Of a stretch of 64,000 bases of DNA, positions 21,013 to 56,107 are shown piece after piece. The notes under the pieces are model-generated. The model was given only the letters and a program-made list of their open reading frames with translations. It did not search any database and was not told where the DNA came from. Within the stretch, counting starts at the first letter, position 1; each line of letters opens with the position of its first letter. Source of the DNA: Paenibacillus amylolyticus (GTDB taxonomy: Bacteria > Bacillota > Bacilli > Paenibacillales > Paenibacillaceae); contig NZ_CP121451.1 of NCBI RefSeq assembly GCF_029689945.1, positions 372,001-436,000 of the forward strand. Reading direction: 5' to 3'. A program made the position numbers and the translations under genes.

Positions 21013-21129
21013 GCTTGGCGGCGTCCTACTCTCCCAGGACCCTGCGGTCCAAGTACCATCGGCGCTAGAGGGCTTAACGGTCGTGTTCGGGATGGGTACG
21101 TGTGGAACCCCTCCGCCATCGCCACCAAA
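21013..21129 (-). rRNA. rrf: 5S ribosomal RNA
   Basis: The minus strand starts near GTTTGGTGGCGATGGCGGAG and ends near GGACGCCGCCAAGC, about 117 nt. It has the conserved CCCATCCCGAACACG segment. The ends are set by the helix I pairing and may be off by a few bases. Confidence 0.93.
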
Positions 21130-21220
21130 CAAGCATTTGTGTAACAAATGCGTTTGCGTTCCATTCGGTCCGACACTGCTGTGTGGATGAATGGTTCAGC
21201 GCATATTCAGAGATCATTCT

Positions 21221-21246
21221 CTGAAAACTAGATTCGAAACGAAAGT
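21221..21246 (-). other. Pre-23S processing stem, 3' strand
   Basis: CTGAAAACTAGATTCGAAACGAAAGT is the near-perfect inverse complement of 24476-24504 in the 16S-23S spacer. In the transcript the two would form the long stem cut by RNase III/Mini-III around 23S. Confidence 0.75.
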
Positions 21247-21268
21247 CTGCGAACTATCACTTGCTATT

Positions 21269-26181
<4,913 letters not shown>

Positions 26182-44168: not shown

Positions 44169-44364
44169 AAAGACGGACTTGTACATATGGACAAGCCGTA
44201 TGGATGCTGCAAATGTACTGGAGGGATATTCGAGCAGGAGTTCACTCCTGACACGTCAAACGCCAAACAGCTATCCAGGATCGGATGTGAAGGTACCTGA
44301 ATCTGCTTTTCAAGCAAACTGTCTGAGAATGGTCTCATGCCAGCCCTATCATAATGTTGCAGCA

Positions 44365-44440
44365 TCTTTCCCGTAGTCCGATCATTCCGGTGATCGGGTA
44401 GAGACATGCAGGCCTATTCCTGCACATATACGAGTAACGG
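44365..44440 (-). promoter_or_regulatory. Purine (guanine/xanthine-type) riboswitch aptamer
   Basis: The minus strand reads the G-box pattern: ACTCGTATAT, a TGCAGG..CCTGCA hairpin, GTCTCTACCC, a GATCACC..ATGATC hairpin and GACTACGGG. The base that pairs with the ligand is C (GACTAC, not GATTAC), so the ligand is guanine-like. It precedes xpt-pbuX; ligand should favour the terminator and stop transcription. Confidence 0.9.
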
Positions 44441-44723
44441 CATATTAAATTTTTGGCTCCATGATTCGTTACAATGTATGATCGCGAACCTGAATGTAAA
44501 AGGTTATACATAACTGACAATGTTAGAAGTATACCGAATCGGCGGCGTGAAATAAAGAAGTATTTTCATGGAAGTTGCGGAAACTTGTTTTAATTTGCAA
44601 ACAGGGGGTGATTGGAATGTATTTTTTATGTACAATATGAGAACGGAAGCGCGGAACCGAACGGAGAATGGATGGAACCGCGGCCTACATTTTCAATTAA
44701 ATGATCAAAGGAGATATGCAGAC

Positions 44724-53559: not shown

Positions 53560-53807
53560 TTAATGCGTTCCTCCTCATACCTGAATGTGAAATAGGGGAA
53601 AGACTTGGCCACTACCTGAAATTAACCTAATTCTGCTGCGGATAACCTGCAATACAAGCGATATTTCAAATCTAAACTAACCTACCGCTTACATTCATTG
53701 CATGCCAACTGCAACACTGAGACGATCTGTCCCGTCTATTAACTTGAAGCGTGGCTTTAAGGAAGATTTTACCGCGAGATTACCAAGATTAGAAGGGATG
53801 AATATTG

Positions 53808-54878
53808 ATGAATAACAACATGAAAAAAGTAAGTGCCGTGATGGCCCTATCCATGGCATTGGGCGGCGGAGCCGCTTATGCAGCAACATTGGACAACACA
53901 CAACCAGTCCATCAAACATCCGTTTCAGCCGATAGTAACGCAGCTGCTGCCGTAAAGGTATCCGTGAATGGCGCATCCATCTCCGATGGTTATTGGAACA
54001 AGGATGGCAAGGTAGCCATGATCCCACTGCGTGATCTTACCGAAGCATTGGGTATTGAACTGGAATGGAATAAAGAAACCAAAACGGCAGAGCTGACTCG
54101 TGGCGCTCTATGGACACAGGTCATCACAGGCAAGGATCAGTATTCCGTGAATAAAATGCTGCTCACGTTGGGCACAGCGCCTGAAATCACAGGCGGAAAA
54201 CTGTATGTACCGGCTGCTTTTGCCGAAAAAGCACTGCATGGACAAGTGAACACAACAGGAAATCAGGTGACGATCTCTAGTGAGGAGGACGTGAAGACGG
54301 TTACTGAACGTGGTGTAATTACCAGCATCTCGAACCAGGATAAATATAAGTCCATCCAGATTGGCGGTGCAGGGTTGGATGGCATCGTGCTCAACCTGAG
54401 CGATGAGACGAAATTCATCTCCGTTGAGGGGAAAGAGATTGCACTGACGGATCTGGCCATCGGCATGAACGTGGAAGCTGAGCATTCCCTGATCACTACC
54501 CGCAGTCTGCCGCCACAAACGCCGACTTATAAAGTTACTGTACTGGATGCAGCTACAGCATCTGAGGCACAACCTGAAGAGGTGCTGGGTACAGCAGGTA
54601 CAATTGAAGATGTAAGAACTGCAGAAGGCCTGATCTCACAGATTGAGATCACAGGTACACGGTTAACAGAGACGGGTCCTGACCATGTGATCCTAAATAT
54701 CAATAAAGATACACTGCTCGTAAATCACGAAGGTGAGACGGTGAAAGCTGAAGAACTGACGAAAGGAACCAAAGTCATTGGGTTCTACAGCCCTGTGCTG
54801 ACACGTAGCCTGCCTCCAATCGGAACAGCTTGGAAAGTGGTTGTTGAAGCACCTGAAACCGTGCTGGAAGCGAAATAA
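53808..54878 (+). CDS. Secreted copper-amine-oxidase-N-terminal-domain protein with two repeats
   Basis: A 356-residue protein. The signal peptide is KKVSAVMALSMALGGGAAYA. A copper-amine-oxidase N1 module follows (about 45-150; VKVSVNGASISDGYWNKDGK, VAMIPLRDLTEALGIELEWN, KLYVPAAFAEKAL), then two similar repeats of about 80 residues, each ending in TRSLPP (TTRSLPPQTPTYKV and LTRSLPPIGTAWKV). Such modules are common in Paenibacillus wall proteins. No catalytic residues are seen; it probably binds the wall or matrix. AAGGG precedes the ATG at 53808. A very strong terminator follows. Confidence 0.82.
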   Translation: MNNNMKKVSAVMALSMALGGGAAYAATLDNTQPVHQTSVSADSNAAAAVKVSVNGASISDGYWNKDGKVAMIPLRDLTEALGIELEWNKETKTAELTRGALWTQVITGKDQYSVNKMLLTLGTAPEITGGKLYVPAAFAEKALHGQVNTTGNQVTISSEEDVKTVTERGVITSISNQDKYKSIQIGGAGLDGIVLNLSDETKFISVEGKEIALTDLAIGMNVEAEHSLITTRSLPPQTPTYKVTVLDAATASEAQPEEVLGTAGTIEDVRTAEGLISQIEITGTRLTETGPDHVILNINKDTLLVNHEGETVKAEELTKGTKVIGFYSPVLTRSLPPIGTAWKVVVEAPETVLEAK

Positions 54879-55028: not shown

Positions 55029-55082
55029 CCGCATAAAAGAGCTCAGCCGTGCGGTTAGGCGGCGAAATCAATTCAAAAAAGA

Positions 55083-55125
55083 CCTTATCCGCTTGTCTCC
55101 TGACAAGCACGGATAAGGTTTTTTT
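55083..55125 (+). terminator. Strong terminator downstream of 53808 gene
   Basis: CCTTATCCGcTTGTC / GACAAgCaCGGATAAGG stem, TCCT loop, then TTTTTTT, which runs directly into the T/G-rich array. Confidence 0.9.
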
Positions 55126-55148
55126 GGTTTTAGGTTTTAGGGATCTTT

Positions 55149-55261
55149 GGGGGTTTGGGGTTTGGGGTTTGGGGTTTGGGGTTTGGGGTTTGGGGTTTGG
55201 GGTTTGGGGTTTGGGGTTTGGGGTTTGGGGTTTGGGGTTTGGGGTTTGGGGTTTGGGGTTT
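55149..55261 (+). repeat. Telomere-like (GGGGTTT)n tandem array
   Basis: One GGGGG run and then fifteen GGGG runs, each exactly 7 bases apart with TTT between, give 16 G-tracts on the plus strand. The preceding GGTTTTAGGTTTTAGGG is a degenerate heptad lead-in. Any four tracts could form an intramolecular G-quadruplex; the repeat is identical to the Bombus/insect-unlike but plant-like TTTGGGG class only in form, not origin. No protein is expected from it. Confidence 0.95.
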
Positions 55262-55348
55262 GGCTTTAAGTTTTGCGGAGCGTGCCTTCAAACTTGCTTC
55301 CAAGCGAAGCACACCTGAACTTGTCCGGAACAGGCATGTGCAACGTGC

Positions 55349-55460
55349 GTTGCATACGACGTGCACTGTATACGACATGCGCTGCATACGCGATACGCGT
55401 TGCATACGATACGCTTGCATACGATACGCGTTGCATACGATACGCTTGCATACGGAATGC
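55349..55460. repeat. Degenerate 15-18 bp tandem repeat, about seven units
   Basis: Consensus GTTGCATACGATACGC, units repeating seven times with variants such as GTTGCATACGACGTGC and TTGCATACGGAATGC. Units are unequal in length, unlike a CRISPR array. Confidence 0.8.
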
Positions 55461-55531
55461 ATGAGCAAGCGGTCGTAGCGCTAACGAATCCGAGGCATCT
55501 TATTCAGGGATTTGAAGCACCTGTAAAAACC

Positions 55532-55624
55532 TAAGGAATCCCAGACACGCTATATGTGAATAAATAGCTGTTTATAGCATTTTTATCAGAAAAATTCGAG
55601 AAATAACGTGTCTGATGTTCCTTA
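55532..55624. repeat. Long imperfect inverted repeat, possible interspersed element
   Basis: TAAGGAA..CAGACACG (55532-55549) is the inverse complement of CGTGTCTG..TTCCTTA (55607-55624), with 3-base internal loops and a 57-base AT-rich centre. A third related GACGTCCTGAGTTCCTTAG lies at 55657-55675. Confidence 0.7.
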
Positions 55625-55705
55625 CATTTTCAGAAGAGGACTTGAGGGCCGAATAAGACGTCCTGAGTTCCTTAGAAAATCTCACGATATGCGGGATTCG
55701 CTGAA

Positions 55706-56107
55706 TCAACCAACTTGGACTTCATCTTCAACAATCGCTTCTACTTCAATCTCAACCATCAACAAGGGATCAATGAGTGCGCTAACTTCAACCATGGTGG
55801 CTACAGGCTGAATCTGTCCAAAAAATTCACCGTGCGCCTTGCCAACTTCCTCCCACCTGGAGATATCCGTCACAAACATTCGGGTTCTCACCACATGCGA
55901 CATGTCAGCCCCCAACTCTTTCAGTGCATTCTCGATCGTCTGCAAAACGAACCTCGTCTGTGCATACGGATCACCTGCCCCAACGACTACACCATCTTGC
56001 ATCGCGGTTGTACCCGCCACTTCGATTCGATTCCCTACACGGATGGCACGGCAATATCCCACCAACGGTTCCCATGGGGAACCGGTAAATACCTGCTGTC
56101 TACTCAT
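55706..56107 (-). CDS. RidA/YjgF-family enamine/imine deaminase
   Basis: A 133-residue protein: FTGSPWEPLVGYCRAIRVGN, then VAGTTAMQDGVVVGAGDPYA, QTRFVLQTIENALKELGADM and VVRTRMFVTDISRWEEVGKA. The end ATMVEVSALIDPLLMVEIEV matches the RidA signature except that the usual arginine before P is replaced (P at ALIDPLLM). RidA hydrolyses reactive 2-aminoacrylate. Other members lack that activity, and the loss of the arginine (normally R105) makes the role here uncertain. It faces the repeat-rich region. Confidence 0.85.
   Translation of the reverse strand: MSRQQVFTGSPWEPLVGYCRAIRVGNRIEVAGTTAMQDGVVVGAGDPYAQTRFVLQTIENALKELGADMSHVVRTRMFVTDISRWEEVGKAHGEFFGQIQPVATMVEVSALIDPLLMVEIEVEAIVEDEVQVG

Follow-up and report, generated by a model that had tools for sequence, protein, structure and literature searches.

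A (GGGGTTT)16 array behind an intrinsic terminator of Paenibacillus amylolyticus: unit turnover and replication orientation of G/T-rich arrays in the genus

Introduction

A perfect array of the heptad GGGGTTT lies between two convergent genes of the Paenibacillus amylolyticus chromosome, raising the question of whether such a repeat is kept for what its unit does or arises from the way the DNA is copied. According to Rehm et al. 2015 (PMC4692102), many bacteria have an excess of heptad repeats, which so far lacks explanation. A sequence-only reading of the 64,000-nucleotide stretch analysed here (the window) had described the array as (GGGGTTT)15 with 16 G-tracts, had suggested that it grew from a short seed by slippage, and had offered quadruplex formation, phase variation and protein binding as possible roles.

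Results

The array and its setting

Exact counting gave 16 units on the plus strand, one more than previously proposed, with an extra G before the array and GG after it; the number of G-tracts was instead correct, since 16 tracts of at least four G, the first one of five G, were counted starting from position 55149. TRF called the array at 55150–55263 (period 7, 16.3 copies, 100% matches, score 228), and the longest identical period-7 run in the window was 107 bases, the maximum in 30 first-order Markov simulations being 11.

As already recognised from the sequence, the array is located between convergent genes and after the terminator of the plus-strand one, coding for a Cu_amine_oxidN1-domain protein, the other gene coding for a RidA/L-PSP family protein (Table 1). 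It starts 271 bp from the upstream stop codon and 24 bases beyond the end of the hairpin of this strong intrinsic terminator, which was overlooked by the terminator scan, was revealed by RNA folding and is shared by the orthologous regions of the relatives inspected. The lead-in of degenerate heptads was also found, starting, according to TRF, within the terminator T-tract. An Rfam search of the locus did not retrieve any family at gathering score, and a laxer threshold gave two chance matches on the terminator. The small ORFs running through the repeat are mechanical.

Table 1. Features of the locus and other annotated elements of the window (window coordinates).
Feature	Position	Strand	Support
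Copper amine oxidase N-terminal domain protein (PF07833), gene before the array	53805–54878	+	ORF list; Pfam E 1.2e-17
Intrinsic terminator hairpin, T7 at 55119–55125	55076–55125	+	RNA folding, -29.5 kcal/mol; minus strand also folds, -27.6
Degenerate lead-in heptads, possible seed	55121–55141	+	TRF, TTTTAGG x3.0
(GGGGTTT)16 array	55150–55261	+	Exact count; TRF score 228
Left end motif AGCGTGCCTTCAAAC (dispersed element, longer form)	55279–55293	+	15 bases after the array, outside it
Second tandem array (16- and 31-bp units, GCGTTGCATACGATAC)	55347–55454		Inside the dispersed element (longer form)
Dispersed element core	55477–55681	+	36 own-genome matches, some of them short pieces
RidA/L-PSP family protein (PF01042), gene after the array	55706–56107	-	ORF list; Pfam E 1.1e-26
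Complete rRNA operon (16S, 23S, 5S)	21013–26181	-	Rfam
Purine riboswitch	44354–44453	-	Rfam

Two candidate explanations were rejected on position. A telomere needs the end of a linear replicon, and the array sits 427 kb inside a 6.82-Mb contig. A phase-variable contingency repeat was likewise discarded, the array being 3' of both convergent genes and not in the promoter or coding frame of any surface or adaptation gene.

Occurrence of the unit

A genome-wide search for other GGGGTTT arrays retrieved none in the same genome beyond this single (GGGGTTT)3 place (14 overlapping matches). One pattern search identified three G-rich heptad arrays in the genome (G000), the two beyond the present one being a (GGGTTTT) array at 1.293 Mb and a (GGGTTTC) array at 2.517 Mb. 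A (GGGGTTT)3 place was detected in 3 of 98 relatives, P. amylolyticus itself not counted. At a larger scale, 32 bases of the repeat (at least 4.6 units) matched at least 117 stretches from many phyla in GTDB genomes, 80 of which were listed individually and of which one genome can contribute several. Among the matches listed were named isolates of Pseudomonas, Klebsiella, Flavobacterium, Psychrobacter and Paenibacillus, together with many contigs of MAGs, in some of which the repeat is terminal. GGGGTTT is no rarity among bacteria, and the earlier remark that few bacterial examples exist does not hold, the G-rich heptads of Xanthomonas and Nostoc (PMC4692102) being further examples.

The array stays and its unit changes among relatives

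Of 75 genomes of the genus, 49 yielded the orthologous region; its intergenic part, hereafter site 1, was compared in 42 of these 49, P. amylolyticus included; in G113 and G107, where RidA was not found, 900 bases were scanned instead. A dispersed element, described below, is present in 17 of the 42 regions, and all of these 17 carry a G/T-rich stretch between terminator and element, with the G/T-rich strand always being that of the terminator (17/17). A TRF array scoring at least 30 was called in 16 of them (the exception being G051), and one scoring at least 45 in 13. At least seven different units were found on the same strand of this one orthologous site: besides GGGGTTT, they comprise GGTTTT and GGTTCT (G025, G099 and G027), GGCTTT/GGTTTT (G113), GGTTTTT (G023 and G055), GGTTTAT (G053 and G106), AGTTTTT or AGTTTTTT (G034, G058 and G002) and GGGTTT/GGGTTTTT (G016). 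None of the 25 element-less regions showed a G/T array (best TRF rows listed: score 24 to 34, other units), and in one of them, that of the close relative G008, a 34-base G/T-rich stretch without repeats was observed.

That no sister genome might have the array, as the sequence-only reading had envisaged, is thus true for the GGGGTTT unit at this site in the 41 relatives, but false for a G/T array there. A unit that is rewritten while the repeat stays matches the prediction of slippage and not that of a unit-specific function. Together with the degenerate lead-in heptads, the differing units of the relatives support the suggestion that a short seed grew by slippage.

A second site of this kind was found before a TetR-family gene, where the (GGGTTTC) array at 2.517 Mb of P. 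amylolyticus sits (site 2). In G013 and G056, GGGGTTT arrays precede the orthologous TetR gene and follow an M20 peptidase gene and a terminator, an arrangement established in these two genomes and not in G000. A TetR orthologue was retrieved from 22 of the 75 genomes (E 1e-40), and the 1 kb upstream of it, read in all 22, contains a TRF array scoring at least 45 in 13 cases and none in 9. The units include GGGTTTC, GGGGTTT, GGATTTA, TGGGT, CTTTGGGG, TTCTTTGG, TTTAGTTC and TTTTTTTG, and the arrays are located at differing points of a zone rich in T and G on the coding strand. Site 2 behaves much as site 1 does, as a place of arrays whose units differ among species. Elsewhere at the two sites, heptad arrays with GGG tracts number from 6 to 16 units.

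Replication orientation of G/T-rich arrays

By GC skew and dnaN, origin and terminus were placed at about 1.06 Mb and 4.15 Mb in P. amylolyticus, and at about 0 and 3.55 Mb in G025. In all three G-rich heptad arrays of P. amylolyticus, the G-rich strand is the leading-strand template. A survey was performed on 31 genomes of the genus, of one to three contigs each and all with dnaN found, using three G/T patterns with up to three mismatches; clusters of matches were classed as arrays by periodicity, with one row per cluster picked by hand. The resulting 37 rows (26 arrays and 11 non-periodic matches) count once a G016 cluster matched by two patterns. In 24 of the 26 arrays the G/T-rich strand is the leading-strand template, with the terminus assumed opposite dnaN in 29 of the 31 genomes, some lengths rounded and further orthology between the counted places possible; the two opposite cases come from G048 and from G103, the latter close to the assumed terminus. 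After merging orthologous rows (five of site 1 and three of site 2) the count was 18 of 20 (two-sided binomial p=0.0004). Adding a pentad search, which gave one new place (G020, 5.085 Mb, same orientation) plus site 2 of G105, raised it to 19 of 21 (p 2e-4), a second G020 pentad match (13/18 periodic) being excluded. With a stricter periodicity cut, 13 of 14 arrays showed the majority orientation.

Non-periodic G/T matches were distributed 8:3 in the same direction as the arrays, so that the orientation bias may in part not be special to arrays. From non-coding composition the reverse would be expected for G-rich units, with the leading strand favoured 7:1 for three GGGGTTT units and 1.5:1 for GGTTTTT, and no strand preference for AGTTTTT. 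A GGGAAAA control followed composition, with 20 of 22 matches on the leading strand, several of these unmerged rows looking orthologous, and with 1 of the 22 being periodic. In a pattern-free TRF sample (score at least 40, coding sequence included), the G/T-asymmetric arrays of P. amylolyticus were distributed 8:0, two of them also belonging to the pattern count, and those of G025 showed no bias (2:2).

Discussion

A probable slippage microsatellite with a possible fork polarity

The array is probably a microsatellite produced by replication slippage and devoid of a conserved function. The seed would be the G/T-rich patch behind the terminator, made of the T-tract and the GG at the stem foot (GG then T7), from which slipped copying might lengthen, shorten and rewrite the units until each species has its own unit at the same place. 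The survival of an array may depend on the direction of replication, orientation-dependent loss being the presumed cause of the bias. On this last point we are more reserved, and we only tentatively suggest that the G/T-rich arrays of Paenibacillus are fork-polarised, that is, that they persist almost only where the G/T strand is the leading-strand template.

In the majority orientation the C/A-rich strand is the lagging-strand template. This recalls CTG/CAG repeats, in which, according to a review (PMC3310812), contraction occurs when the strand prone to structure serves as lagging-strand template, and the sense of the bias would match that rule if the G/T strand were the structure-prone one. 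Such a step suits GGGGTTT better than AGATTTA, and the sense of the bias also holds for AGATTTA-like units, which are not obviously structure-prone. In both systems the fate of the repeat would be set by which strand is the lagging-strand template; the CTG/CAG rule, however, comes in that source from constructs and disease repeats, whereas the Paenibacillus one would derive from the positions of natural arrays.

Alternative explanations

Direction of transcription, rather than polarity of replication, could underlie the orientation, if a head-on gene reading through its terminator met the forks and slippage or repair there expanded G/T units on the coding strand of that gene. The upstream gene of site 1 is indeed head-on to the fork, as are the peptidase and TetR genes of site 2 in G056, and the two directions are confounded in the orientation count. 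At the six P. amylolyticus arrays where this head-on rule was examined, the preceding ORF shares the G/T strand in four (site 1, L286, L288 and L350), but at L275 and L281 the neighbour is on the other strand, according to crude ORF calls (at least 120 aa, longest first) by which some flanks are misjudged. We consider this explanation unlikely, although it stands better than the following ones.

The array might alternatively be a part or by-product of the dispersed element, as the variable repeat head of a MITE-like repeat. The core in Table 1 is a copy of an intergenic repeat of about 200 bp, made of inverted units of about 24 nt (CTAACGAATCTGAGACGTCTTATT and its inverse), whose longer copies have the end motifs AGCGTGTCTTCAAAC / GTTTGAAGACACACC; the left end motif of Table 1 also precedes other copies, some of which are followed by its inverse. 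An even sample of P. amylolyticus (80 x 20 kb, 1.6 Mb; L271–L350) contains 25 copies, and matches occur in many genomes of the genus. The element has no Rfam family, support for a conserved RNA fold over the 25 copies is weak (-1.48 kcal/mol, 13 pairs, 3 of them changed on both sides), and it is possibly a MITE-like element. Its co-occurrence with G/T-rich stretches at site 1, present in the 17 regions with the element and with no G/T array in the 25 without it, supports a connection, and so does the P. amylolyticus sample, in which, among intergenic gaps of at least 200 bp, 8 of 23 with the element and 8 of 589 without it have an array (Fisher 1e-8). The site-1 pattern, on the other hand, may reflect one or two events of gain or loss, and the association was not replicated, with a profile built from P. 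amylolyticus copies whose yield in other genomes may be lower, either in a 0.8-Mb sample of G025 (0 of 5 gaps with the element vs 1 of 202 without) or at the copies of relatives (0 of 17 with an array score of at least 45, one reaching 42). Moreover, arrays occur at site 2 with the element absent upstream of TetR in all 22 genomes. The clustering is treated as a correlate of the P. amylolyticus genome, and an origin of the array from the element appears improbable.

A related precedent (PMC4596501) is BrickBuilt of Porphyromonas gingivalis, a minisatellite inside a MITE. As there, a tandem repeat accompanies a dispersed intergenic element; the BrickBuilt unit of 23 bp is however inside the element, while the P. 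amylolyticus array is outside the left end motif and site 2 is element-free. A BrickBuilt-like MITE with an internal minisatellite was rejected, given that the array stops 15 bases short of that motif, in a copy whose right end is not established.

Quadruplexes formed by the array could stall polymerases or protect a 3' end. The sequence rule of four GGG tracts is followed by the P. amylolyticus array, by G016 at site 1 and by G000 and G105 at site 2, and G4Hunter scores an idealised 16-unit string at 2.29. At site 1, however, at least four GGG tracts occur in only 2 of the 17 places (17 tracts, one of them in the lead-in, in P. amylolyticus and five in G016), the other 15 having at most two, with G4Hunter values from 0.12 to 0.58 for the five scored. 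A quadruplex as a conserved function was rejected on these counts, and the explanation as a whole is very improbable; the suggested quadruplexes are retained as a predicted property of this array. Conserved roles in protein binding or in phase variation are likewise unsupported, given the same 15 places and the change of unit between species.

Equally improbable is that the C-rich antisense RNA of the array, transcribed from the RidA side, is a putative Rho loading site stopping antisense transcription into the plus-strand gene. The minus-strand RNA would be C-rich and G-free across 112 bases, which is the character of Rho sites. C-richness is nevertheless not kept among relatives, in several of which the unit on that strand is A-rich with a single C or two (AAAAACT, AAAAACC).

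Finally, an assembly artefact is hardly credible, as the 112-bp array lies well inside its contig and comparable arrays are found in separately assembled genomes.

Comparison with other heptads and significance

The closest known system is that of the G-rich heptameric repeats of Xanthomonas and Nostoc (GGGAATC, GGGGA(C/T)T; PMC4692102), which have quadruplex formation in vitro as a feature; by its sequence, the P. amylolyticus array might share it. The array is of the same general kind as these heptads, being intergenic, G-rich and on the coding strand of the upstream gene, as are most of the downstream heptads there, with no function assigned and with length and sequence varying among close relatives, for which slippage is discussed in that source as well. 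Copy number, unit preference, distance from the ORF and strand neutrality differ. Those heptads have many loci per genome, prefer four units, lie mostly within 50 bp of the ORF when downstream of it and, in xanthomonads, have no leading/lagging preference; P. amylolyticus has one GGGGTTT place (three by heptad pattern), an array of 16 units and a much longer distance from the stop codon, and the Paenibacillus arrays are oriented as counted above, both before (24/26) and after merging (18/20). The replacement of the site-1 unit between Paenibacillus species is also unlike what is described there.

Retention of an array whose unit is exchanged from one species to the next speaks against functions tied to a particular unit, quadruplexes among them. 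The fork-orientation rule, if true, would provide a testable mechanism; bacterial chromosomes would record the orientation rule of disease repeats, and the hypervariable patches behind terminators would be a natural substrate for it. Among titles and abstract openings, in a literature with subscription journals mostly outside, neither a replication-orientation rule for bacterial microsatellites nor a treatment of Paenibacillus G/T arrays was found; one listed article (PMC5072193) concerns the typing of P. larvae by tandem repeats.

Further tandem repetition was observed at about 0.86 Mb of the P. amylolyticus chromosome (L281, 5000–8000), where degenerate repeats of 6 to 12 bp are gathered within 3 kb, three of the four being called coding.
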